Below are positions 4,649 to 48,837 of a stretch of 64,000 nt of DNA, piece by piece (the first letter of the stretch is position 1; the number at the start of each line of letters is the position of its first letter). Both the position numbers and the translations under genes were made by a program. The notes beneath the pieces were generated by a model. The model did no database searches. It was not told the origin of the DNA and saw nothing but the letters and a program-made list of their open reading frames with translations. Source of the DNA: Fidelibacterota bacterium (GTDB taxonomy: Bacteria; Fidelibacterota; UBA2242; JAFGTP01); assembly GCA_016934035.1 (NCBI GenBank), contig JAFGTP010000040.1, positions 124,001 to 188,000 on the forward strand, in the 5' to 3' direction.

Positions 4649-7600
4649 CTAGTTTTTGACCATTTTTCCGATAAAGGAATCTTTTTTGCCTGTGGCAATG
4701 GATTTTGCCAGAATTTTAAAGACATAGGTTCCCCTGGCCATGGGATCACCAAAATCGTCTGTTCCATCCCAATATATCTGGTTATAGCCATTCGGTTCAC
4801 TCAACTGGTTTTTAAATTCTTTTATTTTCAAACCAGATACAGTGTAAATCGTAATGGAATAATCACATACTTCAGAGGTGAAAAAAGTAAATTGGGTTTC
4901 GTTTTTGAAAGGATTGGGGTAATTGAAGAGATGTGACAATTGAAAAGATACTGATTTTGAATAGGAAAAACTGAAATTCATGGCTGTACTGTTGTTGGCA
5001 TTGTCCCAGGCCTTTGCCTTGATATAATGTTCGCCCGGCTCAATCCTTTCCGGTAATGGAATGATGATGGTTCCTACAGTATCGCTGCCCTCGTCATAAG
5101 AAAAGGCTGATGTCAAGTCCTGAAGGTCATTGTTTTCATTAAATTCCAGGGAAATTGTGTGGCCCATTTTTCCGGTAAGGTTGATGCCGTGTTCATCACT
5201 GATACGCAGGGCAAGAAGGTCGTTTCCCTGGACTGTTCCTCCGTCAGAAAAGAGTTCATTGTTTTTAAGCAGGGTTATTTTGGGACCTGTGGAATCAGCG
5301 ATATTTTCCGATCCTGAAAATAAAATTGAGTTGTAAACACCCACGAAATCGGTTTGTGCTTCATCATTCCAGCCATAGATGTGCAATTTACCGTAATCCT
5401 TGCTGTAGTTCAGGTCTTTGGGAACAAAGAATGAGGATTTGAACAGGCCGTTTTCAACCGTGATATTGCCCTTAAAAAGGACATCGCCGGGAAGTTTATA
5501 GGAAATGGATCGTTCTTCGCTGGGGTTCATGGGATTGTAAAATCTTGTGACACTTTGTTTACTGTCAAATAGGGATATGAGGGCTTTCCCGGTGAAATTT
5601 TCAATACTTGAACTGCCTTCTATCTGAACATTTTGCAAGGCTTTCAGTGTGTCATTTTCCAAAGCGGAAAATTCACCGGTTTCATAGGGTAAAGCCAGGT
5701 ACATTGCAGGATCACCGAAAAGAACATATTTGGCATTATTGTGAAAGGAGCCGACAACAAAATTTTTCAGCAAGTCACCTGTTCTGATTTTATTAATTCT
5801 GTTATTGCTGAACCAGTAGGTGAATATTTTTTGGAGTAGCAGAACATTGTTGCTGTTCACTGTCGGCCTCGAAGCTCCGATGCAGGCAATGCCGCCGTCA
5901 GCTTTCATGGTCACCAGCTTTTCGGGCATGCAATCATTGAGTACATCATCATATTTACCCCAGGTACAGGTGCCTGCAATCCAAAGTGGTAATTTTCTCA
6001 GATTGACGATATTGGGTAACTCTTCCGAAGAAAAAGCATCTTCCTGGGCCCATTGGTCCGGGCCGCCGTGGCCGATGTAATTGATCAGAACAGTGCCTTC
6101 AGTTAGTGCGCTGTGAATGGCTTCTGTGGCGGCTGGTTTTTTAACACCGTATTTGGATTCATCCTGAGACTCAGGAAAGTCTGTCAGGTAAATTTTTTTC
6201 AGGTTGAAAATATCGGGGAATACAGTGGTTGATAAGGTTTCAGAATCTTTGACAAATTCCGGTTCATCAGGCCAGGGACGTGTTGGGTCGTCGGCCACAA
6301 AAGTGGCTGTACTGCGCCAAGTGCCAAAATTTGGGTCCAGAATATAGTCTTCTAATTTTTCCAGGTAATTATTGACTTCATCAGGGCTGGAAACCGGGAT
6401 TCTGCCGGTAGCCAGGTCGGGGATGAGATCACCGGCGGTCAGATAGGTAAATTTAAAATCTGAGGCGTAATAATCCCAATTGTGTTCCGGGGCCCAAACC
6501 TGATAGGTCATGACATGATTTTTTGTCTCGCTTTTTATACCGCGGTGATCAAAGGTACCGTCACCCAGAAGCAGTAAATATTCAGGTTTGATGTTCCAGT
6601 TTTCAAAGGCATATTTGAGAAAATTTCTGATGGCTTCAGCATCCAGAATGTCGCCATTAAACTGCCTCATAATAGCATTTTGGGTGGTGACAAAAGTGGT
6701 CAGTTGGTTCTCGGCCTTGACTTTGGCGCTATGGATTTCTGCGATTTTATTGGCAGCAGAAAGAAAACTTTCGTCGGTAATGATGACATATTGGGCATCT
6801 TTATTTTCATAGAGACTCGTAAAATCAGGATGATCAATTTGGGTGATGGATGTAATTTCAGAATAATTGGATTCAGATGTCAGCAGGTAGGTCTTTCGGT
6901 CACTGGCTGGATTGAAATCGGTAAAGGATAATTTATTTCCATCAATTTCAATAGGTAATTCCTGAATATGATGCCGGCCACTGATATCAAAAACCCGCGG
7001 CGTATCTGTCAGTTTCACGTCAAGATTGTATCGAATGGTTCCACTTTCTTTGGGAGCGTAAAAAAGCAGTTTGCTGCTGATATCGGACAGTTTGATTTTA
7101 TAGGTAGCCTGAACATAATCCAGGTAATTTATCCCGCTGCTGTTGTATTGCTCAATGCGCAGGGTATTGGTCCGTGGAGAAAGCTGTGTGTGGAAGGTTT
7201 TTTCCAGATGGTCATATTCATAAAGATAAATTTTGTTTTCTATAACATTACTGTTCAGATTAATCCTGAAATACTGGGTGTTGCTTTCGGAGCCGGATTT
7301 TAATCGCAGGGTGATGTTAGCCGGAAAATTTTGATCGCTGGAAGGCAGAATGAAATATTCGACATTATTGGAACCGTTCCCGTTAAATATTTTATTATAC
7401 CAGTCGTTGCCGGATTCCAGAATATTGTAGTTTTCTTTTTCTTTTCTCCAAAGAAAGTCGGTTGAATCAACGGCAAAATCAGGGGCTGTCGTGATTTTTT
7501 CAGCCAATTCTATTTCCCTGGGATTGCCTTCGCTATCAGCCACCAAGACCCAAAAATAATTGTTGAAAGAATAAGGGTTCCTGAGGAAGTCAACCTCATT

Positions 7601-8515
7601 GATTAAATTGACAGTCTGACCAGTCGGTGATTTTCCATAAAAAAGGATGAAATCTGCTTCGCTAAAAGCTGAATTGCCTTTAACATAAAAACTTCGGGGA
7701 ATTTCAATTAAGGGAGCGGGATTGTAATCTGTAATCTTTTGTCCGAATGTGGCATTGGCATAAAGAAATATTCGGCTTTTGGCAATGCTGGTTTCAGTCA
7801 GTCCGGCTTCTTTCAACTGGTCAAAAGTAATTTTAAATATATTGTTAAATCCATCCCCATTATTGAAATCGTAGGCGGACTTGTCAGAGATTGCAATGCG
7901 AAACCATTTTCCCATTGCGAAAGATGGCAGGGTGATTTTGTGCAACGGTTTTTGGTACTGATGTTCATTTCTTGAAAAACTGTTGAGATAGGTGAAATCA
8001 AACTTTTCTGTTTGTTGAATTTGAAAAGGGTGCCTGTATTTTATGCTCACCCTGGCAAATTTCAACTGTCTCAATTTTTTTGTATCACCATCGTATTGGA
8101 TGGGGTAAACAGTCAGGAACAGAGTTGGTATTTTACCGGCCATGCCCAGCGCCTCAATTTCAAGAGGTTCTTTGTTCAGAAGAGTATTGACAGATTCCTC
8201 TTCAGAAAATTGAAAATCGGTATCTTCCCATTGGGTGTTGGAAAGGACAATGGATGGCTTATCTGAATTCGGAAGCGCCAGTTTGTAACTCCAAAAAGGG
8301 ATATTGTATTTTCCTGCAGGACGATAGTATGCATCCGGAACCGTGATATTTATGGATCCGTTTGTGGCTTCCTGTTGCAGAGTCGCTCTGGTTTCATTGC
8401 TGATTGTAAAAACAAATTGTTGGCTGTCTTCTTCCAGAATTTGCAGATTATAACCAAAACCGGTTGTTATTGGAATCAGGCAGGATAATAGAATGAAGAA
8501 TTTGATTTTATACAT
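4649..8515 (-). CDS. porU: PorU-type C25 cysteine peptidase (type IX secretion sortase) with FlgD-like C-terminal domain
   Basis: A 1288-residue secreted protein with a signal peptide (about residues 1-20) and a long beta-rich N-terminal half. The gingipain-fold C25 domain spans about 590-960. Catalytic His816 is in YIGHGG and Cys850 in AGTCTWGKYDD, 34 residues apart, as in gingipains and PorU. After Ig-like segments the protein ends in a FlgD-like domain (about 1195-1288) with NYPNPF and YSITIYTVSGLKI motifs and the GTYVFKI strand, the usual T9SS/C-terminal sorting fold. PorU removes sorting domains from T9SS cargo and attaches the cargo at the cell surface. A secreted gingipain-like protease is the alternative; the DQW...ED...LPLWIAGTC context favours PorU. 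No other T9SS gene is in the window. Confidence 0.85.
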   Translation of the reverse strand: MYKIKFFILLSCLIPITTGFGYNLQILEEDSQQFVFTISNETRATLQQEATNGSINITVPDAYYRPAGKYNIPFWSYKLALPNSDKPSIVLSNTQWEDTDFQFSEEESVNTLLNKEPLEIEALGMAGKIPTLFLTVYPIQYDGDTKKLRQLKFARVSIKYRHPFQIQQTEKFDFTYLNSFSRNEHQYQKPLHKITLPSFAMGKWFRIAISDKSAYDFNNGDGFNNIFKITFDQLKEAGLTETSIAKSRIFLYANATFGQKITDYNPAPLIEIPRSFYVKGNSAFSEADFILFYGKSPTGQTVNLINEVDFLRNPYSFNNYFWVLVADSEGNPREIELAEKITTAPDFAVDSTDFLWRKEKENYNILESGNDWYNKIFNGNGSNNVEYFILPSSDQNFPANITLRLKSGSESNTQYFRINLNSNVIENKIYLYEYDHLEKTFHTQLSPRTNTLRIEQYNSSGINYLDYVQATYKIKLSDISSKLLFYAPKESGTIRYNLDVKLTDTPRVFDISGRHHIQELPIEIDGNKLSFTDFNPASDRKTYLLTSESNYSEITSITQIDHPDFTSLYENKDAQYVIITDESFLSAANKIAEIHSAKVKAENQLTTFVTTQNAIMRQFNGDILDAEAIRNFLKYAFENWNIKPEYLLLLGDGTFDHRGIKSETKNHVMTYQVWAPEHNWDYYASDFKFTYLTAGDLIPDLATGRIPVSSPDEVNNYLEKLEDYILDPNFGTWRSTATFVADDPTRPWPDEPEFVKDSETLSTTVFPDIFNLKKIYLTDFPESQDESKYGVKKPAATEAIHSALTEGTVLINYIGHGGPDQWAQEDAFSSEELPNIVNLRKLPLWIAGTCTWGKYDDVLNDCMPEKLVTMKADGGIACIGASRPTVNSNNVLLLQKIFTYWFSNNRINKIRTGDLLKNFVVGSFHNNAKYVLFGDPAMYLALPYETGEFSALENDTLKALQNVQIEGSSSIENFTGKALISLFDSKQSVTRFYNPMNPSEERSISYKLPGDVLFKGNITVENGLFKSSFFVPKDLNYSKDYGKLHIYGWNDEAQTDFVGVYNSILFSGSENIADSTGPKITLLKNNELFSDGGTVQGNDLLALRISDEHGINLTGKMGHTISLEFNENNDLQDLTSAFSYDEGSDTVGTIIIPLPERIEPGEHYIKAKAWDNANNSTAMNFSFSYSKSVSFQLSHLFNYPNPFKNETQFTFFTSEVCDYSITIYTVSGLKIKEFKNQLSEPNGYNQIYWDGTDDFGDPMARGTYVFKILAKSIATGKKDSFIGKMVKN

Positions 8516-20435: not shown

Positions 20436-20918
20436 CTAAGTCTTTTTTAAAAATATAACCTTATGGTCCTTTTCTCCGTAATAATCCGGTAATACAGCTA
20501 TCAGTTCGCAACCCGATTTAAGATAAAATTGCCTTGTTGGTTCATAAATTGGCCGTGATGACGTTTCAATCCAGATATTCCTGCCGCCCATCATTTTAAT
20601 ATGTTCAATTGCCATGGCCATTAATATTTTTCCGAGGCCCTTGCCCTGGTGGGATTTGTGAACGGCAATCCAATAGAGATCAAAACTATCGGCAGTACCG
20701 GGTATTTTTCCGTAAGTGGTAAAGCCAACGGGCATATTTTCGATTTCAGCAATATTAAAAATATAGCCACTTTTTTCTTCGCCTTTTTCGATATTTTCCT
20801 GGGCCAGTTCCCGGGCGATTTCCACCTCAGAATGGTAGAAAAAACCGGTTGATTCCAGGATTTCACTGACGTGATCTATATCATCCTGATTGACTTCTCG
20901 TCGAAATTTCATTTGCAT
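20436..20918 (-). CDS. GNAT acetyltransferase at the end of the KamA-ATP-grasp operon
   Basis: A 160-residue single-domain GNAT. The acetyl-CoA motif A is seen as HKSHQGKGLGKILMAMAI (about residues 88-105), with the preceding DLYWIAV strand and a later EPTRQFYLKSGCE segment that is typical of GNAT motif B. The ATG shares one base with the stop of the second ATP-grasp gene, so it is translated with it. The acceptor is unknown. In context, acetylation of a basic amino acid or peptide amine is the natural guess, but standalone GNATs acetylate many amines. Confidence 0.88.
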   Translation of the reverse strand: MQMKFRREVNQDDIDHVSEILESTGFFYHSEVEIARELAQENIEKGEEKSGYIFNIAEIENMPVGFTTYGKIPGTADSFDLYWIAVHKSHQGKGLGKILMAMAIEHIKMMGGRNIWIETSSRPIYEPTRQFYLKSGCELIAVLPDYYGEKDHKVIFLKKT

Positions 20919-21880
20919 CAGTTTAAATCCTTCAAAATTTGTTTGATCATGTATTCATGATGATAACCCGCCTCATTCAGGGCTGCGACAAAGCCACTGT
21001 CATTGGAAATGCAAGGATTACCGTTGATTTCCAGTATATAGGGTTGGTTGTTGTCGTCAACCCTTAAATCCACCCTGACATAACCATGCAGGTTAAAGGA
21101 ATTCCAGCAAAGATCACAGCTCTGCAAAATCATGTTTTTCAGCAAACCATTATCATCAAGTGTTCCAAACCTTCGGTTGGTCTGTTTATATTCTTCGCTG
21201 GTTTCATCCCATTTTGCTTTGTAACCGACAACTTTGGGCTTGTCATCAAAATAGGATGAAAATATCATTTCTGCAGGAGGTAGGACCTCGTGTCCGTTTT
21301 CAGTTGCCAGTAGACTGATATTAAATTCTCGTCCCTCGATGTATTCCTCAATAAAATAATGAGAGGAAGATAATTTTTTTAGTTTTTCTACCTTAGAGGT
21401 TTCCTTTAAGGTAAAAACAGAATCCGTATCGATGCCAACTGAAGCTTCTTCCCAGATTGGCTTCACAATATAGGTTTTCTCCGGGGTTAACCGGTTAATT
21501 TCTCCAATTGCATAAAAATCAGCGGTGGGGATATGATGCAGGCGCATCATTTTTTTAGCCAATACCTTGTTGGTTGTTAAAAACAAGGCATCCAGAGGAA
21601 CGCCGGTGTAGGGGATCTTCAGGGCATTCAGAAGGGCCGGCGCGACGTATAAAAGTTCACCTTTGCCCCAGCCCGATTCCACGAGATTGAAAATAATATC
21701 AGGACTTTGGCTTTGTATTTTTTTTAAATCGGTGTAAATATCATCCCCGACAGATGCGCTTGAAACTTCGTGGCCTAATTTCTGACAGACCGCCTGAACT
21801 AAATCTCTTTGAGCCAGGACATCAATTTCATCTTCTGTGTTATTCTGAATTTTATTGTGCAGAATGATGATTTTACTCAT
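20918..21880 (-). CDS. Ddl-like ATP-grasp ligase, second of a tandem pair
   Basis: A 320-residue ATP-grasp enzyme. It has a Ddl-like pre-ATP domain (IIFNLVESGWGKGELLYVAPALLNALKIPYTG, about 62-92), ATP-binding lysine in YIVKPIWEEASVGID, IEEYIEGREFNISLL, and the metal-binding end RVDLRVDDNNQPYILEINGNPCI (about 262-284). D-Ala-D-Ala ligases and their relatives join an amino acid carboxylate, as acyl phosphate, to an amine. The usual Ddl acceptor residues are not obvious, so I do not predict D-Ala-D-Ala. It overlaps the first ATP-grasp gene by 8 bp. Confidence 0.85.
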   Translation of the reverse strand: MSKIIILHNKIQNNTEDEIDVLAQRDLVQAVCQKLGHEVSSASVGDDIYTDLKKIQSQSPDIIFNLVESGWGKGELLYVAPALLNALKIPYTGVPLDALFLTTNKVLAKKMMRLHHIPTADFYAIGEINRLTPEKTYIVKPIWEEASVGIDTDSVFTLKETSKVEKLKKLSSSHYFIEEYIEGREFNISLLATENGHEVLPPAEMIFSSYFDDKPKVVGYKAKWDETSEEYKQTNRRFGTLDDNGLLKNMILQSCDLCWNSFNLHGYVRVDLRVDDNNQPYILEINGNPCISNDSGFVAALNEAGYHHEYMIKQILKDLN

Positions 21881-22856
21881 AAGAAAAATTCCGTTTAATG
21901 GCCGATTTCAGAATTTCGGAGATAATATCCTGATAGGATTTACCATTTAGATAGCATAAAATGGGTAAGTCTGATGTTTCCGGATTGAGTCCGGCCAAAG
22001 GGTTGACCTCAATAAAACTCAATTTATCATAACGGTCAATTTTGACATCAACACGCCCTCCGTCAAAACAATTGAGCGCTGTCCAGGCCCCCAGGGCCAT
22101 GTTTGTGCATTCTTCCAGCAATGCTCCGGTGACTGGCCGGTACTCTACCAGGTCTTCAAAATTTTCCTTTGTATTATAGGAATATATTTGGGTCATTTCT
22201 TTTTCTTTATAAATAATTTCCATGGCGCCAGGCACATAGGCCTCTTCACCAGATCCCAATACACCGACGGTAAATTCCCGGCCGGGAAGATACTCTTCGA
22301 CGATTACCGGTTGATTGAACTTTTTTAATTTCAGGCTGCAAGCCGTCAATAATTCTTCCTGTGAATGAATGACAGAGCGTTTATCGATTCCTTTGCCGGT
22401 CCCTTCAGAAATGGGTTTGGCAAATAAAGGATATTGAAGGTTGACTTTGGCGATATCTGATGTTTTGTAAATTACCTCAAAGGCCGGTGTGTTGAGGCCA
22501 CAATCCCTTACAATTTGCTTGGCAAAAGCTTTATTTAAAGATACTCCGAGCGTCACGGGATTGGAGAATACATAAGGTATCTTAACCATATCCAGCAGCG
22601 CCGGAACAAGAGATTCACGGCCTTCGCCATATAATCCTTCTGCGATATTAAAAACCATATCCCATTTTTGTCCCTGTTGCAGCTGTTTAATTAAATTTTG
22701 TGCATTGCCAATACGAACGGTTTGATGCCCTTCGTTTCTTATGGCCTTTTCGATCCCTTCAATGGTGCTCACTTTGTCAAATTCTGCTGTTTCTTCCGGA
22801 GAATATCCGTCTTTCAAATAATCTGCTCGCAGATCGTATGTTAATCCTATGATCAT
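21873..22856 (-). CDS. Ddl-like ATP-grasp ligase, first of a tandem pair
   Basis: A 327-residue ATP-grasp enzyme. NIAEGLYGEGRESLVPALLDM (about 70-90) matches the Ddl fold's glycine-rich loop. PLFAKPISEGTGKGID gives the ATP lysine and loop, EEYLPGREFTVGVLG follows, and GGRVDVKIDRYDKLSFIEVNPLAGLNPE (about 265-292) carries the metal-binding Glu/Asn. It differs from its neighbour in the loop residues (EGTGKGI against EEASVGI), so the two are paralogues with probably different substrates rather than a recent duplication. Its ATG overlaps the HDAC fusion stop by 4 bp. Confidence 0.85.
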   Translation of the reverse strand: MIIGLTYDLRADYLKDGYSPEETAEFDKVSTIEGIEKAIRNEGHQTVRIGNAQNLIKQLQQGQKWDMVFNIAEGLYGEGRESLVPALLDMVKIPYVFSNPVTLGVSLNKAFAKQIVRDCGLNTPAFEVIYKTSDIAKVNLQYPLFAKPISEGTGKGIDKRSVIHSQEELLTACSLKLKKFNQPVIVEEYLPGREFTVGVLGSGEEAYVPGAMEIIYKEKEMTQIYSYNTKENFEDLVEYRPVTGALLEECTNMALGAWTALNCFDGGRVDVKIDRYDKLSFIEVNPLAGLNPETSDLPILCYLNGKSYQDIISEILKSAIKRNFSYE

Positions 22857-24598
22857 TTTTTTTTCTTTTCCATTTTGGATGTGATGTAGCCTTCAAAAAA
22901 ATTTCGGGCATTGGTTCCCAGCGTCCTGTTTTTATATCCGCCCTCCTGGACAAATAAAACAGGGACCGGAATTCGGCCGATTTCAGTGCCATTATTTTTA
23001 AAATCACTTGCTTTTAGTGACCAGGTCCCGGTTGGGTCGCCCTTGGCCGGGTCAAAGCCCAGACTTACAATCAGGTAATCGGGTTTATGTTCCAGGATTT
23101 TTTTTATAGCCCGTTTCAGAAAAACCAAATATTCCCCTCCGGTTATGTTTTCTTTTAGTGGGAAGTTGATGTTGTAACCTTCGCCGATCCCTTCACCTTT
23201 TTCCTCTTCAAAACCGGTAAAATATGGGTAAGCAAAGGAGGGATTGCCATGAATTGAAATTGTCAGCACATCCTTGCGGGAATAGAAAATTTGTTGGTGG
23301 CCGTTTCCGTGGTGATAATCAATATCTAATATGGCCACCTTTCCATATTGCGACAGAAAATGAGCTGCTATGGATGCATTATTGAAATAACAAAAGCCGC
23401 CGAATACATCTTTTTCGGCATGGTGTCCGGGTGGGCGAACCAAGGTATAAGCGCTGTGATAACCTTCCAGTAATAATTCAGCTCCGGTCAGGGCACAGTT
23501 GACACCGGAGCGGGCTGCTAAAAACGCATTCTTATTGATCGGTGTAAATGTATCGATGCAATAATATCCAGCGAGAACGGAAAAATCTTTCGGCGGACGT
23601 GTTAGATTTCTGATGGGGAAGACATAGGGATAAATGGACTTTCCTGCAGGGATTTTGTCGCAGACGGTTTTGATATAATTAAATAACTTGGGATTATGCA
23701 CTTCGGTGATGTGTTTGTCCGGGTATCCTCTTGAAGGCCTTATTTTAAAAACCTTTAATTTTTCAATTTCCTGTAAAATGCTTTTTATGCGGATGGGTGA
23801 TTCGATATAGCCTTTTTCTTTAACATGATGAATGTCATGCATGTCATTGATGATCAGCATGATTTCATCTTTAACCGAACCGGTTTTCTGTATCGGCCTC
23901 TCTTTGTCGATGTATTTGAATTCTCTCAATCTGACAGGGTTATCAGTAATGGATTTGACAACTGTCTGAATATAATCTTCCGGACAATAATCAGGATATT
24001 TTCGTTCCAAAAGAGCTCTGATAATTTTTTTTGCTTTCAGGGCAGACAGTTGAACATCATTTCCCAGGTCATCAAATACCAGATATGGCGGGCAATCATC
24101 TTTGGGATTGACAGAGGTTTCATATTGGGTGCCGATGATGGGCCTGGCCCCGTAACGTTCATAAAAGGCCAACCGTGCTGCATTCTGTTTGAGAAGGCTT
24201 TTGTCCCTGCACAAATTTTCATCATCAGGAAGACATTCCATGAAAATTCCCAGAGAATTGAGCAGTTGGGCTTCTTCCCGGATTCTTTCGTAAACAGCGC
24301 CACCGATTCCCGAGGCAGTTTTACCCGGTTTTACCGCAATATAATCCAGAAAACAGAAATTCAAGTCCGGCAGATAAAACAGAAGGGCAAATCCTTTCAC
24401 ATTGCTCCTGCCATCTTCTGCGACAAAGAGCTGGGATGAAAACCGATATTTTAACGGATTTTTCATCTGTTCCAGAATTTCGATAATTTTTTCTTCTTTT
24501 ACTGCTGGAAAATGAATTCGCAAAATATCAAATACCTGTTGAATAACATGAATATTGGATGGATGGTAGGTATCGGAAATCTTTCGGATTCTGAACAT
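22853..24598 (-). CDS. GNAT-histone deacetylase (acetylpolyamine amidohydrolase-like) fusion
   Basis: A 581-residue fusion. Residues about 1-175 read as a GNAT (FLDYIAVKPGKTASGIGGAVYERI, then ARLAFYERYGARPI). A helical linker (about 175-270) leads to a complete class II-type deacetylase domain (about 270-575). Its zinc site is intact: RPPGHHA (388-394), DIDYHHGNGH (425-434) and LGFDPAKGDPTG (around 514-524), followed by QEGGY. The domain is closest in pattern to acetylpolyamine amidohydrolases. One polypeptide would thus add and remove acetyl groups, which suggests protection and deprotection of an amine. It starts 10 bp after kamA and overlaps the next gene. Confidence 0.9.
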   Translation of the reverse strand: MFRIRKISDTYHPSNIHVIQQVFDILRIHFPAVKEEKIIEILEQMKNPLKYRFSSQLFVAEDGRSNVKGFALLFYLPDLNFCFLDYIAVKPGKTASGIGGAVYERIREEAQLLNSLGIFMECLPDDENLCRDKSLLKQNAARLAFYERYGARPIIGTQYETSVNPKDDCPPYLVFDDLGNDVQLSALKAKKIIRALLERKYPDYCPEDYIQTVVKSITDNPVRLREFKYIDKERPIQKTGSVKDEIMLIINDMHDIHHVKEKGYIESPIRIKSILQEIEKLKVFKIRPSRGYPDKHITEVHNPKLFNYIKTVCDKIPAGKSIYPYVFPIRNLTRPPKDFSVLAGYYCIDTFTPINKNAFLAARSGVNCALTGAELLLEGYHSAYTLVRPPGHHAEKDVFGGFCYFNNASIAAHFLSQYGKVAILDIDYHHGNGHQQIFYSRKDVLTISIHGNPSFAYPYFTGFEEEKGEGIGEGYNINFPLKENITGGEYLVFLKRAIKKILEHKPDYLIVSLGFDPAKGDPTGTWSLKASDFKNNGTEIGRIPVPVLFVQEGGYKNRTLGTNARNFFEGYITSKMEKKKK

Positions 24599-24608
24599 AA
24601 AAGTTTTT

Positions 24609-25868
24609 TTATCTGATGGGATCGTAATATTTGAACAGGTTACCTTCGTAATTTTTCATGAGGATGTAATCACCTTCACGGCCCTGATAATATTCAGGCA
24701 GCAAGGGTATTTTTCCTCCACCCCCGGGTGTGTCGATGACATAATGAGGAATAGCATAACCACTTGTAAACCCCCTCAGTCCCTTAATAATTTCCAAACC
24801 CTTGGAAATTGGCGTTCGAAAGTGGGCCGAACCGGGAATTGGGTCGCATTGGTAAAGATAATAAGGCCGTATTCTGATTTTTAATAATCGGTGCATTAAT
24901 TCTTTGATCGTTACGACATCATCGTTGACTCCCTGCAGCAACACGGTTTGACTGCCCATCACGATTCCCGCGTCGGCCAGTCGATTGACAGCTTCGACAA
25001 CTTCAGGCGTAATTTCATCCGGATGGGTGCAATGAATGCTCATAAATAGAGGGTGGTATTTTTTTAACATCTTCACGAGACCATTGGTGATCCGCTGAGG
25101 GAGAACCATGGGCACTTTTGTGCCGATTCTGATGATTTCAATATGAGGAATGGCCCGCAGTGAAGAGAGTAGAAATTCAATATGAGTTTCCGGTAAAGTC
25201 AGTGGATCACCGCCTGACACAACAACATCCCTAACCGCTGGATTGTTTCTGATGTATTCAATCGATTTTTCCCAGGCCTTGATGCCAAAATGCTTTTTAT
25301 CCTTAAGAACCATGTGCGAACGGGTACAATAGCGACAATAAGTGGCGCAAAATCCGGTTGATACCATTAATACTCTGTCCGGATAGCGATGAATCAGATT
25401 ATTTACCGGGCACATGGCTTCTTCATGAAGAGGGTCTGATTCTTCCCCTGGTGAAATAAGGAGTTCCCGCATATCAGGAATTACCGTTCTGCTTAGAGCA
25501 GACTTGATGGATTTTCCTGACAGCAAACTGGCATAATATGGGGTAATTCTTAAAGGAAGTTTTCTTGTTTTTGACAGAAAATCAATATCCTCAATACTGC
25601 TGATATCAATAATCTCAGAAAGTTTTTTTATACTGGTATAACTTTTTTGGATTTGCCACCGCCAACTGTTCCACTGTTTGTCTGTTGCATCCGGGAAATA
25701 AGTTTCTCTGAATTTTTGAGTGTCTGGGCTAACAATTTTAAAGTCTGAATTTGGGATTTCTGTTCTGCTAAAGGGTTTTTCTTCAGTGCTGGCTGTTTCC
25801 AACACGGCTTCTTCTAATGAAAGGTCCTTTTGTAAAGGAGGCTCTGAATTCTGATCTGGATTGTTCAT
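24609..25868 (-). CDS. kamA: KamA family radical SAM aminomutase (lysine 2,3-aminomutase-like)
   Basis: A 419-residue radical SAM/PLP enzyme. The iron-sulfur motif CATYCRYC gives Cys174, Cys178 and Cys181. VSGGDPL is the SAM-binding GGE-type motif. The PLP lysine lies in PGGGGK near the C-terminus. The Asp pair that holds the lysine side chain in the clostridial enzyme appears conserved (YLYQCD and VIDTPGGGG), which favours L-lysine to beta-lysine over the glutamate enzyme, where these positions are Lys and Asn. The first ~40 residues are low-complexity. It heads a five-gene operon. A TTGACA at 25928-25933 has no convincing -10. Confidence 0.92.
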   Translation of the reverse strand: MNNPDQNSEPPLQKDLSLEEAVLETASTEEKPFSRTEIPNSDFKIVSPDTQKFRETYFPDATDKQWNSWRWQIQKSYTSIKKLSEIIDISSIEDIDFLSKTRKLPLRITPYYASLLSGKSIKSALSRTVIPDMRELLISPGEESDPLHEEAMCPVNNLIHRYPDRVLMVSTGFCATYCRYCTRSHMVLKDKKHFGIKAWEKSIEYIRNNPAVRDVVVSGGDPLTLPETHIEFLLSSLRAIPHIEIIRIGTKVPMVLPQRITNGLVKMLKKYHPLFMSIHCTHPDEITPEVVEAVNRLADAGIVMGSQTVLLQGVNDDVVTIKELMHRLLKIRIRPYYLYQCDPIPGSAHFRTPISKGLEIIKGLRGFTSGYAIPHYVIDTPGGGGKIPLLPEYYQGREGDYILMKNYEGNLFKYYDPIR

Positions 25869-42174: not shown

Positions 42175-44619
42175 CTAACCTTTACCTAAAACCACCGTCA
42201 CCTTATGCACCTGATTATCAGCGAAAACCGGCAGAATATTTCCGTTGATCACTTTCCCGTCAACTTCCACGGATTTTACGCCTTTGGAAATGTTGTCCGG
42301 ATTCAGCACAGTAATTTGATAGGTTGCATTCTGGAATTTGCGGGTCACTTTGTATTCTTTCCAGGATGTGGGGATACAGGGATCGATTTTCAATCCGTTA
42401 AATTCCGGCTGGACACCCAAAATGGCCTGTGAAATGGCCACAAAGGACCAGGCGGCTGTTCCGGTAAGCCAGGAATTTTTTCCCTCTCCAGGAGTAGGAG
42501 CATCGGAGCCGGCTGTCATCTGGGAGTAGACATAGGGTTCGGCCCTGTAGGTCTCAATCTGGCTTTCCTTGGATGCCGGCAAAATGGCTTTGTAATATTC
42601 CATGGCCTGATTGCCATGTCCGAGTAGGGTTTCTGCAATCTGTATCCAGGTGTTGTTGTGAGTAAAGATACCGGCATTTTCCTTGTAGCCCGGCGGATAG
42701 GAACTCACTTCACCCAGGTTCAGGTGGTAGGTCTGATAGGCCGGTTGCTGCAGTTTGATACCGTTGGGTTCGGCCAGATATTTTTTGACACTGTGCAGGG
42801 CTTTTTCTGCATAGCCGTTTTCCAGACCGGCTTTACCGAGGATACACCAGCCCTGGGACTCGATGAAGATTTTTCCCTCCTCACACTCTTTGGAACCGAT
42901 GACCTTTCCTGCGGCGTCGTAAGCGCGTTTGAACCATTCTCCGTCCCAGCCATGTTGGTAAATTTTTTGGCGCATTTCTTCACCTTTTAAGGTGGTGGCT
43001 GCTGCCTGTTCTTTTTGGCCCAGTACCTGATAAATGGCTTCCATATCATCGCAGGCACGGCAAAATAGTCCGGCAATCATCACTGATTCCGCAGTCTTGC
43101 CATCCCCATTGTCTACAGCCAGTTGAAAACTTTCGCCAGGTGTGGATGAGTGGCAATTGAGATTGAGGCAATCATTCCAGTCCGCATGTCCGATTAGGGG
43201 CAAACCATGCGGACCGAGATTTTGCAGGGTAAAATCAATCGATAATTCCAGGTGGTCCATCAGGGTTTCTGTTTTTTCGGCTTTGTCGGCGTAACCGATT
43301 TTTTTATCGAGAATCGTGAAATCACCGGTTTCTTTCAGATAGGCGGTTGTGGATAAAATCAACCAGAGATGATCGTCCATAAAACCGCCACCGATGTCGG
43401 CATTGCCTTTTTTGGTCAGAGGTTGGTACTGGTGATAACAGGTCCCGTCGGATAGCTGGGTTGAGGCGATATCAAGGATTCGTTGACGAGCGCGTTGAGG
43501 CTGATAGTGGACATAGCCGAGAACGTCCTGATTAGAGTCCCGGTAACCCATACCCCGTCCGATACCGGATTCATAAAAGGAAGTGGCCCTGGAAAAATTC
43601 AAGGTGGCCATACATTGATACTGGTTCCAGATATTGACAGACCGGTCAACATTTTCGTCATCAGTGCGGGCCTGGTAGACGGAAAGCCATTCTGACCATT
43701 GGTTTTTTAATTGCTGAAAAGCCTTTTCGGCTACGGAATTTTCGTAGAATTCAGCTTGGATGCTTGTATATTCAGCTTTATTGATTACATGTGGTGCAAT
43801 GAATTTTTTATTTTGGTCATTCTCAGCATATCCCAGCAGGAAGGTCATTTTTTCTTCATCACCGGGTTGCACATTGAGATCAATTTGGTGGGATGCGATG
43901 GGCGCCCAGCCATAAGCAATACTATTTGCAGACTTTCCTACTTTTATTACTTGTGGCATTTCCAGACCATTATACATACCTACAAATGCATCGCGATTGG
44001 TGTCAAAGCCGGATATGGTCCGGTTCACTGAAAAATAGGCATAGTGGTTACGGCGCTCCCGATATTCGGTTTTGTGAAAAATTGCCGACCCTTCCACTTC
44101 CACTTGGCCAATGGAAAAATTTCGCTGAAAATTTGTCATGTCGTCCATAGCATCCCAGAGGCACCATTCCACGAAACTCCAAAGACGCAGATTTTTCGGT
44201 TTATCACTCAGGTTTTTGATGGAAACCATCCAGACTTCATGACGATAGCCCAGGGGGATGAAGAAAGTGATTTTCACTTCCACACCATTCTTTTGTCCCG
44301 TGATGGTGGTGTACCCGAGACCGTGACGGCATTCATAATGGTCCAGGTCCTTCCGCATGGGCTTCCACATCGGTGTCCAGGAATCATCACCACCCTGAAT
44401 GTACAGATAACGACCATTGTTGTCCATTGGAATCGAGTTGTAACGGTAACGGGTGAGGCGACGCAGTTTCGCATCCTGATAAAAAGTATACCCGCCGGCT
44501 GTATTGGATATAATTCCGAAGAATTCTTCACTTCCCAGGTAATTGATCCATGGTAGCGGCGTGTCCGGTCGGTTAACCACATATTCTTTGTTTTTATCGT
44601 CAAAATATCCGTATTTCAT
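42175..44619 (-). CDS. Cellobiose phosphorylase (GH94)
   Basis: An 814-residue cytoplasmic GH94 enzyme of standard length. It carries IGRGMGYRDSNQDVLGYVH, the following ARQRILDIASTQLSDGTCYHQYQPL and GNADIGGGFMDDHLWLI segments, and the catalytic region HADWNDCLNLN (acid Asp within D480-D483). These are the cellobiose phosphorylase signatures. It converts cellobiose and phosphate to glucose 1-phosphate and glucose, saving ATP. CAGGAGA precedes the ATG, which lies 74 bp after the GH9 stop. Confidence 0.93.
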   Translation of the reverse strand: MKYGYFDDKNKEYVVNRPDTPLPWINYLGSEEFFGIISNTAGGYTFYQDAKLRRLTRYRYNSIPMDNNGRYLYIQGGDDSWTPMWKPMRKDLDHYECRHGLGYTTITGQKNGVEVKITFFIPLGYRHEVWMVSIKNLSDKPKNLRLWSFVEWCLWDAMDDMTNFQRNFSIGQVEVEGSAIFHKTEYRERRNHYAYFSVNRTISGFDTNRDAFVGMYNGLEMPQVIKVGKSANSIAYGWAPIASHQIDLNVQPGDEEKMTFLLGYAENDQNKKFIAPHVINKAEYTSIQAEFYENSVAEKAFQQLKNQWSEWLSVYQARTDDENVDRSVNIWNQYQCMATLNFSRATSFYESGIGRGMGYRDSNQDVLGYVHYQPQRARQRILDIASTQLSDGTCYHQYQPLTKKGNADIGGGFMDDHLWLILSTTAYLKETGDFTILDKKIGYADKAEKTETLMDHLELSIDFTLQNLGPHGLPLIGHADWNDCLNLNCHSSTPGESFQLAVDNGDGKTAESVMIAGLFCRACDDMEAIYQVLGQKEQAAATTLKGEEMRQKIYQHGWDGEWFKRAYDAAGKVIGSKECEEGKIFIESQGWCILGKAGLENGYAEKALHSVKKYLAEPNGIKLQQPAYQTYHLNLGEVSSYPPGYKENAGIFTHNNTWIQIAETLLGHGNQAMEYYKAILPASKESQIETYRAEPYVYSQMTAGSDAPTPGEGKNSWLTGTAAWSFVAISQAILGVQPEFNGLKIDPCIPTSWKEYKVTRKFQNATYQITVLNPDNISKGVKSVEVDGKVINGNILPVFADNQVHKVTVVLGKG

Positions 44620-44693
44620 ATTTTTATTCTCCTGATAGTTTTAATTGATCTTTTGGTTTTATTTAGATTGTTTTATGTCATTGTGAGGGGTAT

Positions 44694-46385
44694 TTATTGA
44701 TGGGGTCTATTTAAATATCCGGCATAAGCCACCAGAATCGCATTCCAGTTGATGCAGGTTTCATTGGAAGCATAACTGTCCCTGGAATCCACATAGCAAA
44801 AGGCTGGCGGTGTTTTTTCATTGTACAATTCTTGTAACAGAGGATCCTGCAGATTTTCATTGGGCCCACCAACCAGAAATCCGGGGTATATGGACCCGTC
44901 ATGGGTGAGCGAACAAATTCGATTGTGGACATTGACGGGATATTTCTCGCCAAACCCGGTGACAAAAGAGAGGTTCAGCCCATTAGCGCCCAAAATGAAA
45001 TGAATTTGGTGAACGGCCGCTTTCCTGTAAGGATCATTGGTGAATTCGTAGCCACCGGCCAGCAGGATAAAGCCAAAATTCAGATCAATCTGCAAGGAAC
45101 CCCAGCGATAGTCACCCGAATTCAGCAGGACGCCATAGCCATTGGTTTGATATCTGGTCAGCATCATCTCGCAAAAATTTTGCCACTCTTTGGACAAGTG
45201 CTGTTTTAATTGAGGATTACTGCGATTTGGGGCTAGTTTTACATAGCTGACGACACCGAAGGGCGCCACATTGCACCAGGAAATTTCATTGGGAAACAGT
45301 GTGATTTTATCTGCTGCGGCAGTTATGGAATCCTCAAAGGATTTATCCTTAAAAGTGCGGTACATTTCAACTGCTGCCCAGAATCGTTCATCGGCATCAT
45401 TTTCGTCGCCATAAGTCCCGGTTCGAATATCTTCGGGGTTTTGAAAGCCGCCCTGGGGAATATTTTCTGTATGCATTTCCAGGTAATACCAGGCCCTCAG
45501 TGCAGCTGCTTTGCATTGATTGGCAAAGGGCTTATCAAATTTTTTAAATATCCGTGCTGCCTGTGCCGCTGCAATTGTAAAATCGGCTGTTGCGGCCGTG
45601 GTTTTGATCATCAGGACTTGGGTCTTTTTATCTTCATGGGGTTTGAGATCAAGTGATTGAAAAGCTGGTTCAGTGACTTTGTGGAACAATCCGCCGTCTT
45701 CATCCTGCATTTTCAACATCCATTCCATTTCATACCGGATCTCATCCAGCAAATCCGGGATGCGGTTTTTACTTTCGGGAATACCGATAGTGTCGCTTTG
45801 AAACCCTTCCGGAAATATTTCATAGGCCAACAACATGACAGCGACTGAATAGGCGCCATTGACAATATAGCGGCCGTAATCACCGGCATCATGCCAGCCT
45901 CCGGATACTTCCCGGAGACCGGATTTCTGTACATCTCTGTGATACTCCGCATCTTTGGTATGACAGGCGGGATGGACGAAATCACCGGCAAATTCCGATG
46001 TCAATTCCAACCCGCAGCGCTGAATGTAAAAAGTTTTCAGTGATTCCTGATAGAGATTATCATAAACATTTTGCCTGATGAAAAAGGACGCTGACCGGCC
46101 GTTTTTGGGTGTTTGAATTATGTATTCGCCGGCTTGCTGAAAGGGTGTGAAATCTCCCTCATAAATGGTTTGTCCTGTGGCCGGGTCGGATTGTTTTATT
46201 TCGTATATTTTCCCGGAATATACCTCTTTACCGGTGGTTTTTTCAACCAATGAAAAGGATTCATCTCCGTTTAGGAAATAAACCGGTTTTTGGGATTGGG
46301 ATAAATATCCGACCTGATTGACTGCGATTTGGGCAAAAACTGAATTGCAAAGGACAATCAAGGTGATTAAGGCTAATTTTTTCAT
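44694..46385 (-). CDS. GH9 cellulase with N-terminal Ig-like domain
   Basis: A 563-residue protein with a signal peptide (about 1-18, ending SVFAQ), a CelD_N-type Ig domain (about 20-105) and a GH9 (alpha/alpha)6 domain. GGWHDAGDYGRY holds Asp166 and the base Asp169, and YVDSRDSYASNETCINWNA holds the acid Glu542. Enzymes of this Ig-GH9 type are endo- or exo-acting on cellulose and cello-oligosaccharides. There is no carbohydrate-binding module or sorting domain, so it is likely periplasmic. It lies between two cytoplasmic phosphorylase genes, which suggests it trims imported oligosaccharides. Confidence 0.93.
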   Translation of the reverse strand: MKKLALITLIVLCNSVFAQIAVNQVGYLSQSQKPVYFLNGDESFSLVEKTTGKEVYSGKIYEIKQSDPATGQTIYEGDFTPFQQAGEYIIQTPKNGRSASFFIRQNVYDNLYQESLKTFYIQRCGLELTSEFAGDFVHPACHTKDAEYHRDVQKSGLREVSGGWHDAGDYGRYIVNGAYSVAVMLLAYEIFPEGFQSDTIGIPESKNRIPDLLDEIRYEMEWMLKMQDEDGGLFHKVTEPAFQSLDLKPHEDKKTQVLMIKTTAATADFTIAAAQAARIFKKFDKPFANQCKAAALRAWYYLEMHTENIPQGGFQNPEDIRTGTYGDENDADERFWAAVEMYRTFKDKSFEDSITAAADKITLFPNEISWCNVAPFGVVSYVKLAPNRSNPQLKQHLSKEWQNFCEMMLTRYQTNGYGVLLNSGDYRWGSLQIDLNFGFILLAGGYEFTNDPYRKAAVHQIHFILGANGLNLSFVTGFGEKYPVNVHNRICSLTHDGSIYPGFLVGGPNENLQDPLLQELYNEKTPPAFCYVDSRDSYASNETCINWNAILVAYAGYLNRPHQ

Positions 46386-46446
46386 TTGCTGACCTATTTT
46401 TTTTTGTTGTCCGTCATGGCTGTCCTGGAAGCTTTGGCAGGGGCAT

Positions 46447-48837
46447 TTAGCCCATGACTACGATAATTTCATTTTCTTCTTTCATCCCTTTTTCCGGAAT
46501 GAAATTGTCTTTCATCCTTACACCGTTAAGGGTGACGATCTTCACACCTTTTTGAACGCAATTGGGATTTTGGACCAATATATTCAGCGTTTTTCCGCGG
46601 AATTTTCGGACCATTCTGAATTCCCGCCAGGTATCGGGGATACAGGGATTAATTACCATTCCATTATAGTCCGGTTGCAGGCCCAGCACACAGGTCATTG
46701 TGGAATAGTAGGACCAGGAGGCCGTACCACTCAGCCAGGGCAGGCTGGAAGCGCCAAATCTTGGATGATGATGGCTGAAGGTTGACTGGCAGTAGACATA
46801 GGGTTCTATTTCCCGGACTTCGGCAATGTCATTGTAGGCCGAGGGGGTGTAGGCTTTTAGGTACTCAAAGGCACGATTGCCGTTTCCCAGCAGGGTTTCC
46901 GCGATAATGGCCCAGCCCTGAGTGTGACAAAAGATAGAGCCGTTTTCCTTGGAGCCTTTTGGGAAGAGTGTCGCTTTGATTACTGAGGGATCGGCGAATT
47001 CGTAGGGTTCACAAACGGTAATGCCATATTTAGTTGCAAGACGATTGTGAACTGATTCCATTGCTTTTTTGGCTTTTTCTTCCGTTGCGTGACCACTGAA
47101 AACCGCCCAGGATTGTGGGTTGAGCCACAACTTACCTTCGTCGCATTCTTCAGCTCCGAATTTCATCCCATCGTCACGATAAGCGCGCAGGTAATAGTTG
47201 CCGTCCCAGGCATATTCGTCTATATTTCTGTCTAATGTCGTCAGGTTTGCGGTGCCCCATTCCACTTCGGAAGGTTTGTTGAGCCTTGCGCAGATTTCAA
47301 TGTAGGTTTTCAATGCATAGCGTAATTGCATCGCCACAAAAACCGTTTCACCTTTCTGCCCTAATTCCAGACAGTCATTCCAGTCGGCGAGCAGTCCACA
47401 GGGCAGATTGTGAGCGCCGCTTCGTTCCAGATTAAATTCAATGGCGCGACGTAAATGTCCCAGCACTGTGGCTTCTCCTTTGTCAGCAAAGGGTAGAACC
47501 TCGTTGTAAAATTCCACATTACCGGTTTCTTTCACATAGGCCGGTACTGTGTTGAATAACCACATACAATCGTCAGAACGATATTCTTCTTCTTTGGGAG
47601 CTTTTTCTTTGCCGGGATGGTGGTCAAAAGGTTTTACAACCGGCATGGCGCCACCGGTAGAAACCTGTCCCGTAATCATGAGTCTCAGACGGTTTGCTGC
47701 TTCATCCGGAATGTTGTGCAGCACGCCCAGAATATCCTGCACAGTATCCCGATAGCCCAGCCCGTCTCGCTCTCCGCTGTAAACCAGACTGGCTGCCCGT
47801 GACCATGTGTATGTCATCATAGAATTGTAAGGATTCCAGACCTGCAGCATATTTTCAATATCTTTATCAGGAACTTCTACCTGCAATGCTGAAATACGAT
47901 TGTGCCAGTGATTGCGTACTTTTTGGAATTCCTCTTCGATTTTGCCTTCGGGTTTCAGGCTTTCAATGGCTTCCCGGCCTTCGCCGTCGGCTTTGCCAAT
48001 ACCCATAACAACAGTGAAGGATTGACTGGTTCCAGGGTCCAGTTCCATATCAATTTGCAGAACACCGCAACCGTTCCCGGAAACGGCTATGGAATTTGTA
48101 CATTGGCCCTTTTTAACAACTTCGGGGTTGTGATAGCTGTTATAGGTGCCGATGAAAACATTTTTGTCAGTGTCATAACCAGTTGGTTCTGCGCCAATCA
48201 ATCCCAGGAAGGAATGGCGGCAGGAGTCGCCTTTGGTAAAATCTTCTGGGGCATAGGGCAGATAAACATTCACACCATGATCAAGAATATTATTGATGAC
48301 CTTCATGGTCAGGGTATATTGTGAATATTGCAGGTTGAGAAAATCATTGTTCAAAATCCAATGTCCGGCGTATTCCACATAAGTAAAAAGACGCAATGTA
48401 CGCTTTTTGTCATCCGTGTTACTGATTTTTATCTGCCAGCATTCATGGTTTTTTCCAAGAGGAACGAAATATTTAGTTTCAGATTTTATCTTTGAATATT
48501 CCGATTCGATGATAGTGTATCCGGTGCCGTGGCGGCAGATGGATTTGTATTCATCAAGAGACTTGCCTACCGGTTGCCATGCCGATGACCAGTAATCGCC
48601 GGATTTCTGGTCGCGGATATAGAGATTGCGACCCGGTTGATCAATTGGTGTGTTGTTAAACATCAGACGCATGAATCGTCCCTGGGCGGCAGATTTATAA
48701 AAACTGTATCCGCCGGCATTGTTGGTGATAATGGCGCCATATTCAGTAGAACCGAGGTAATTGCTCCAGGATTTCGGTGTATTCGGACGCTCTATCACAT
48801 ATTCTTTATTTTTATTATCAAAATGTCCAAATCTCAT
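46447..48837 (-). CDS. GH94 phosphorylase, substrate not assigned
   Basis: A 796-residue GH94 enzyme, paralogous to the cellobiose phosphorylase but of another subgroup. It has ERDGLGYRDTVQDILGVLH, TGQVSTGGAMPVVKPF and LADWNDCLELG in place of the cellobiose-type loops. The conserved Asp of ADWND supports activity. Related subgroups act on chitobiose, cellodextrins or other beta-linked disaccharides. Given the GH130 and GH9 neighbours, a longer cello- or gluco-manno-oligosaccharide is likely. A strong GGAGG site precedes the ATG. Confidence 0.88.
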   Translation of the reverse strand: MRFGHFDNKNKEYVIERPNTPKSWSNYLGSTEYGAIITNNAGGYSFYKSAAQGRFMRLMFNNTPIDQPGRNLYIRDQKSGDYWSSAWQPVGKSLDEYKSICRHGTGYTIIESEYSKIKSETKYFVPLGKNHECWQIKISNTDDKKRTLRLFTYVEYAGHWILNNDFLNLQYSQYTLTMKVINNILDHGVNVYLPYAPEDFTKGDSCRHSFLGLIGAEPTGYDTDKNVFIGTYNSYHNPEVVKKGQCTNSIAVSGNGCGVLQIDMELDPGTSQSFTVVMGIGKADGEGREAIESLKPEGKIEEEFQKVRNHWHNRISALQVEVPDKDIENMLQVWNPYNSMMTYTWSRAASLVYSGERDGLGYRDTVQDILGVLHNIPDEAANRLRLMITGQVSTGGAMPVVKPFDHHPGKEKAPKEEEYRSDDCMWLFNTVPAYVKETGNVEFYNEVLPFADKGEATVLGHLRRAIEFNLERSGAHNLPCGLLADWNDCLELGQKGETVFVAMQLRYALKTYIEICARLNKPSEVEWGTANLTTLDRNIDEYAWDGNYYLRAYRDDGMKFGAEECDEGKLWLNPQSWAVFSGHATEEKAKKAMESVHNRLATKYGITVCEPYEFADPSVIKATLFPKGSKENGSIFCHTQGWAIIAETLLGNGNRAFEYLKAYTPSAYNDIAEVREIEPYVYCQSTFSHHHPRFGASSLPWLSGTASWSYYSTMTCVLGLQPDYNGMVINPCIPDTWREFRMVRKFRGKTLNILVQNPNCVQKGVKIVTLNGVRMKDNFIPEKGMKEENEIIVVMG

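Follow-up and report, generated by a model that had tools for sequence, protein, structure and literature searches.

Why would a bacterium place an acetyltransferase and a deacetylase, two activities that would cancel each other on one amine, in a single polypeptide? This unexpected arrangement is met in the 64,000-nucleotide stretch of Fidelibacterota DNA analysed here (hereafter the window), in which the original prediction had read a GNAT domain fused to a complete acetylpolyamine-amidohydrolase-like deacetylase and had seen in the opposite reactions a sign of transient protection or of a switch. The fusion is genuine and conserved across many phyla, and the open literature searched contains no description of it; its parts belong to known families and their combination is new.

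The fusion protein and its two halves

The list of open reading frames and its translation place a 581-aa ORF exactly at 22853-24598 on the minus strand, where the plus strand is interrupted by many stop codons. The gene belongs to a tight minus-strand operon (20436-25868) with the order KamA, fusion, ATPG1, ATPG2 and GNAT2 (Table 1). A gap of 10 nt separates KamA from the fusion gene, and the following genes overlap by 4 nt (fusion/ATPG1), 8 nt (ATPG1/ATPG2) and 1 nt (ATPG2/GNAT2). Modelling of the whole fusion with AlphaFold2 from an alignment of 60 full-length relatives gave a pLDDT of 86.5 and a pTM of 0.82, with low confidence in the linker between the halves (approximately residues 238-263).

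Table 1. Features of the operon carrying the fusion gene (positions of the window).
Feature	Coordinates	Strand	Evidence
GNAT1-deacetylase fusion protein (P0001), 581 aa	22853..24598	-	ORF, Pfam, AlphaFold2, Foldseek
GNAT1 half, residues 1-235: predicted GNAT core and two C-terminal helices	23894..24598	-	AlphaFold2, Foldseek, conservation
Deacetylase half, residues 246-572, acetylpolyamine-amidohydrolase-type	22883..23863	-	Pfam, PDB match, Foldseek, conservation
KamA, predicted lysine 2,3-aminomutase, first gene of the operon	24609..25868	-	2a5h match, conserved residues
ATPG1, D-Ala-D-Ala-ligase-like ATP-grasp enzyme, 327 aa	21873..22856	-	Pfam/NCBIfam; conserved in cassettes
ATPG2, second D-Ala-D-Ala-ligase-like ATP-grasp enzyme, 320 aa	20918..21880	-	Pfam/NCBIfam matches
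GNAT2, second acetyltransferase, stand-alone, 160 aa	20436..20918	-	Pfam; closest PDB 2r7h

Residues 1-235 are a divergent GNAT with a clear GCN5/AAC(6')-like predicted fold. The window protein stays under the Pfam gathering cut-offs in this half (Acetyltransf_7, E=3e-5; Acetyltransf_1, E=0.002), and 51 of the 60 relatives match Acetyltransf_1 at E<=0.01, the best of them at 1e-7. AlphaFold2 modelled the half alone with a pLDDT of 93 and a pTM of 0.91, and a Foldseek search with this model returned GCN5 and AAC(6') enzymes first and matched PCAF as well (E ~1e-7, TM-score by target up to 0.78). The N-terminal position that had been proposed for the GNAT domain was right and its proposed end near residue 175 was too early, as two extra C-terminal helices carry it to about residue 235. 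Residues G97, G99, E121, D125, N139, R142, Y146, Y159 and D176 are invariant in the 60 relatives. They include the G97-x-G99 of the putative acetyl-CoA loop (Q/R-x-x-G-x-G/A), present in 60/60, and because the usual Q/R of this loop is Thr94, a position that is mostly Thr in the relatives too, binding of acetyl-CoA by the GNAT1 half is predicted only as likely. An N-terminal part devoid of an acetyl-CoA pocket had been named as grounds for abandoning the prediction; the predicted GNAT fold and the invariant G97-x-G99 speak against it. A match to the streptothricin acetyltransferase 3pp9 (E=0.002) was too weak to be used, and the viral contigs searched yielded no relative of the GNAT half.

The C-terminal half matches the Pfam family Hist_deacetyl over residues 265-569 (E=4e-72). 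Its best PDB match is the acetylpolyamine amidohydrolase 9gkz (E=8e-72), and acetylpolyamine amidohydrolases also come first in a Foldseek search with the fusion model (9gkz, 39% identity, TM-score by target 0.90). The RPPGHHA motif and the zinc-binding set attributed to this half are all there. The zinc ligands D427, H429 and D516, the catalytic tandem histidines H392 and H393, the catalytic Y555, and the motifs RPPGHH (R388-P389-P390; RPPGHHA in the window protein) and EGGY (E552-G-G-Y555) are kept in 60/60 relatives. On these residues and motifs, the half is a predicted classical zinc deacetylase (HDAC/APAH). Both halves look active, their key residues being invariant in 60 sequences. The lack of decay in either active site supports the proposal that joining opposite activities served a purpose. 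Wide conservation in which both sites stay intact speaks for protecting-group chemistry or for a built-in switch.

Comparison with the acetylpolyamine amidohydrolases of cluster 4 (PsApaH, 9gkz; Mycoplana ramosa APAH, 3q9b; Marinobacter APAH, 6phr) gives indications on the substrate. These enzymes resemble the deacetylase half in catalytic-domain fold and length, and share with it RPPGHH, EGGY, the zinc site and the L2-loop with its Arg95 equivalent. The extended L2-loop, or polyamine-specificity loop, aligns without a large gap, and R330 stands in 60/60 sequences at the place of the dimer-forming Arg95. The equivalent of Asp163, the salt-bridge partner of Arg95, is position 397, mostly Arg, Lys or Gly; since this partner is not conserved, an APAH-like dimerisation is uncertain. 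Unlike these amidohydrolases, the fusion has an N-terminal GNAT, is encoded with KamA, ATP-grasp and GNAT2 genes, and departs from cluster 4 at the specificity positions: Mycoplana Glu106 corresponds to position 340, which is Pro, Ser or Ala, and the gatekeeper PIS is replaced by an invariant PTG. A second acidic position, Glu117 of the Mycoplana enzyme, which we take to be functionally relevant, is an invariant Phe351. Passages of a survey of bacterial classical deacylases describe the roles of Arg95 and of the gatekeeper, the reading of polyamines by Glu106 of Mycoplana APAH (His in PsApaH), and the restriction of access to small substrates by the cluster 4 L2-loop (PMC11532494). Because the L2-loop and Arg95 are kept while Glu106, Glu117 and PIS are lost, our best guess for the substrate is an acetylated small amine that is not a polyamine, a plain polyamine appearing unlikely.

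Distribution of the fusion and of its gene cassette

When 85,462 species genomes were searched with the GNAT half, 66 loci from many phyla came up, and 64 of these also carry the deacetylase. One exception (L085) is a contig that ends inside the GNAT half. The other (L087:3629-4333) is a real stand-alone GNAT1-like protein of 235 aa, 40% identical; it comes from a Falkowbacteria MAG, in which no cassette was found. In a second sample, 297 genomes of the phylum of a Desulfobacterales genome (L076), GNAT1 was present in 28 genomes, in frame with the deacetylase in all 28. The association of the two on one chain across many phyla is far beyond chance, and the fusion, whose absence from related genomes would have told against the prediction, is widely recurrent. 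In addition, pairwise distances in one half correlate with those in the other (r=0.69, with 0 of 2000 permutations as high), as expected if both halves travelled together. In the window's own phylum, the fusion was found only in the window's genome and in two others (G211 and G212), the copy in G212 being a fragment at a contig end.

Two variants of the architecture were observed. In five genomes (L078, L188, L189, L190 and L192), GNAT2 is added to the chain to form a triple fusion GNAT1-deacetylase-GNAT2, with open frames of about 754-771 aa. A stand-alone deacetylase of 330 aa (L138:9093-10085, 47% identical) separates ATPG2 from GNAT2 in one core operon, and the same genome has the fusion elsewhere (L032). 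A small tree places this deacetylase among the fusions, with moderate support (84/90), which suggests that its GNAT half was lost.

The proposed link with kamA also held, as the KamA gene adjoins the fusion gene in the window and KamA, ATPG1, ATPG2, the fusion and GNAT2 are all together in 32 of the 66 GNAT1 loci, with a permuted gene order; six more loci have part of this cassette. The two ATP-grasp ligases and the second GNAT, which are the decisive context, had no place in the original prediction. Among 30 genomes with a fusion locus mostly without the cassette, 26 have ATPG1 elsewhere. Where ATPG1 is found apart from the fusion, it usually sits within a KamA-ATPG1-ATPG2-GNAT2 set. Among the 297 genomes, ATPG1 occurs in 27/28 genomes with the fusion vs 79/269 without it (Fisher p=1.5e-12, not corrected for relatedness). 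The core without the fusion is found in many genomes (79 of the 106 with ATPG1), and many ATPG1 matches in fusion-free genomes are distant and may be other ligases. About a dozen genomes of the window's own phylum have the core, several of them without the fusion. The core also occurs on its own, and the fusion is therefore an optional extension of a widespread four-gene core.

KamA matches 2a5h with E=2e-117, and its radical-SAM CxxxCxxC motif is present in 59/59 cassette KamAs. We take Asp293 and Asp330 of the 2a5h structure to bind lysine, and Lys337 to be the PLP lysine. Their equivalents D342, D379 and K386 are each conserved in 59/59 cassette homologues, and cassette KamA is for this reason likely to convert lysine to beta-lysine. 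The protein scores 434.6 bits against the equivalog model TIGR03820, under its cut-off of 525 bits, and passes only the KamA subfamily model TIGR00238. ATPG1 and ATPG2 match the catalytic C-terminal domain of the D-Ala-D-Ala ligase (ATP-grasp) superfamily. Unlike true D-Ala-D-Ala ligases, they are two adjacent divergent copies far under the curated cut-offs (149 and 101 bits, respectively, vs 243 for the Ddl model NF002378), and they would for that reason probably ligate other amino acids. GNAT2 is closest in the PDB to 2r7h (E=6.5e-30), the product of Dde_3044 from Desulfovibrio G20, deposited as a 'putative D-alanine N-acetyltransferase', a name that is the depositor's guess. This likeness suggests that the core may also be present in a genetically tractable strain, and a role for the cassette would help to assign a function to that structure.

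Several variations of the core were noted. In some genomes, a long open frame extends over two ATP-grasp domains. Single frames of 647-717 aa with an ATP-grasp match lie at L139:6408-8435 (two matches), L143:205-2148, L144:5716-7824 and L161:7206-9359; in L139, L143 and L161 the frame probably encodes an ATPG1-ATPG2 fusion, and in L144 it covers one match to KamA and one to ATP-grasp. In L161, the deacetylase ORF overlaps the 717-aa frame. Core cassettes of the window's own phylum in L154, L155 and L157 have a second KamA paralogue directly downstream.

A survey of flanking genes found no recurrent neighbour or transporter beyond the cassette, a phosphate-selective porin being present in 3/99 and a mechanosensitive channel in 2/99, and it returned no osmotic gene near cassettes. 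A search against Rfam gave no match to a regulatory RNA in the window. In 48 related loci, Na+ and c-di-AMP riboswitches were not found at the curated cut-offs, and the matches were limited to a distant TPP riboswitch, tRNAs and a pyrrolysine insertion element. The region with the pyrrolysine insertion element PYLIS_2 (L130:9967-11134) adjoins a core cassette, and one gene of the flanking survey matches a dimethylamine methyltransferase.

Candidate pathway and proposed role of the fused enzyme

The KamA/ATP-grasp/GNAT cassette of many phyla looks like a pathway to a beta-lysine metabolite, and its four core genes probably turn lysine into a beta-lysine-containing small molecule. In the scheme that we propose, the five genes of the window would act in one small-molecule pathway. 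KamA would produce beta-lysine from lysine, as its conserved substrate-binding residues suggest, and the two ATP-grasp ligases would, judging from their family, form amide bonds between beta-lysine, or a compound derived from it, and other amino acids. GNAT2 would acetylate one amine, the deacetylase half would strip an acetyl group that masked an amine during ligation, and the GNAT1 half would acetylate another amine or the finished product, so that two steps share one chain. We give a probability of about 0.5 to acetyl protection and deprotection, or acetyl relocation, on a beta-lysine-containing peptide as the function of the fusion; all substrates of the pathway, the order of the steps and the role are what we infer.

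The acetyl steps would concern different amines because two acetyltransferases and one deacetylase belong to one pathway, and sometimes to one chain, the triple fusion favouring different amines of one substrate. The deacetylase kept alone inside the KamA-ATPG1-ATPG2-GNAT2 operon of L138 and the overlapping deacetylase ORF of L161 also argue for such a pathway, as do the genomic linkage to the core and the small-molecule type of the deacetylase, with its APAH L2-loop and invariant R330. The more complete picture, a pathway to a new beta-lysine-containing peptide in many phyla in which the fused enzyme swaps acetyl masks by taking one off one amine and putting one on another amine of the same molecule, is tentative. 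Since many genomes have the core without the fusion, addition and removal of acetyl groups would not be needed for every version of the product.

The end product would probably be an intracellular N-acetylated beta-lysine-containing peptide, with which the lack of a recurrent transporter beyond the cassette is consistent. The closest known precedent is the AblA/AblB pathway to N-epsilon-acetyl-beta-lysine, an established compatible solute (PMC9337991, PMC3543383). Like this pathway, the cassette combines GNAT acetyltransferases with a KamA that has the lysine-binding residues, and it differs in that two ATP-grasp ligases and a deacetylase are added and neither GNAT matches AblB (no match of the model TIGR03827 to the fusion or GNAT2 at E<=0.1). 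AblB occurs in 9 of the 297 genomes of the second sample, 1 of which is among the 28 with the fusion; this is too rare for a complementary distribution to be judged. Given this precedent, the absence of a recurrent transporter and several source names that hint at marine or saline settings, the product may perhaps be a compatible solute; the absence of osmotic genes and, at Rfam's curated cut-offs, of the two riboswitches around the cassettes stands as evidence against it.

Reversible storage, in which GNAT1 would acetylate a beta-lysine-type solute on demand and the deacetylase would later free the same amine, is rather unlikely. It would suit the full conservation of both active sites and the position of the fusion as an add-on often encoded away from the core, an arrangement open to a turnover enzyme, and Na+ and c-di-AMP riboswitches can control the ablA gene of the N-epsilon-acetyl-beta-lysine solute (PMC9337991). 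However, a chain that both acetylates and deacetylates one amine would consume acetyl-CoA to no purpose unless it were regulated, and neither a regulatory domain nor, in the window and the 48 related loci, the corresponding RNAs were seen; moreover, GNAT2 already supplies an acetyl transfer step in every core.

We consider it unlikely that the two halves modify a lysine of a cassette enzyme, in the manner of AcuA and AcuC. In Bacillus, according to passages of the deacylase survey, these proteins pair exactly a GNAT with an HDAC-family deacetylase and act on acetyl-CoA synthetase (PMC11532494), and an optional add-on working in trans would suit a regulator. AcuA and AcuC are, however, separate proteins with a protein target, whereas the fusion is one chain with an APAH-type deacetylase, whose L2-loop would restrict access to small substrates, in a biosynthetic gene context. 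GCN5 ranks first for the GNAT1 fold, but such matches are generic for GNAT folds (12% identity), and in the five triple fusions it is GNAT2, a small-molecule-like GNAT, that is joined to the deacetylase.

An ordinary enzyme of polyamine acetylation and deacetylation with no tie to beta-lysine is improbable: the deacetylase half does have acetylpolyamine amidohydrolases as its nearest relatives of known structure, but the changes at Glu106, Glu117 and PIS and the strong linkage to KamA and ATP-grasp genes argue against it. Merging of two neighbouring genes by a sequencing or assembly error, to which the broken frames of two relatives (L070 and L089) might point, is refuted by 60 intact full-length fusions from independent assemblies of many phyla and by the consistent reading frame in the second phylum.

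No description of the fusion, of KamA with ATP-grasp enzymes or of the Dde_3044 neighbourhood was found in the open literature searched, and the main-text passages of the deacylase survey that match the search terms (PMC11532494) mention no GNAT fusion. Elsewhere in the window, a 1288-aa protein encoded at 4649-8515 (minus strand) resembles by eye a secreted gingipain-type peptidase (PorU-like), and at 42175-48837 (minus strand) a glycoside-hydrolase-like ORF is flanked by two long ORFs whose products are reminiscent, again by eye, of cellobiose/chitobiose-phosphorylase-type enzymes.
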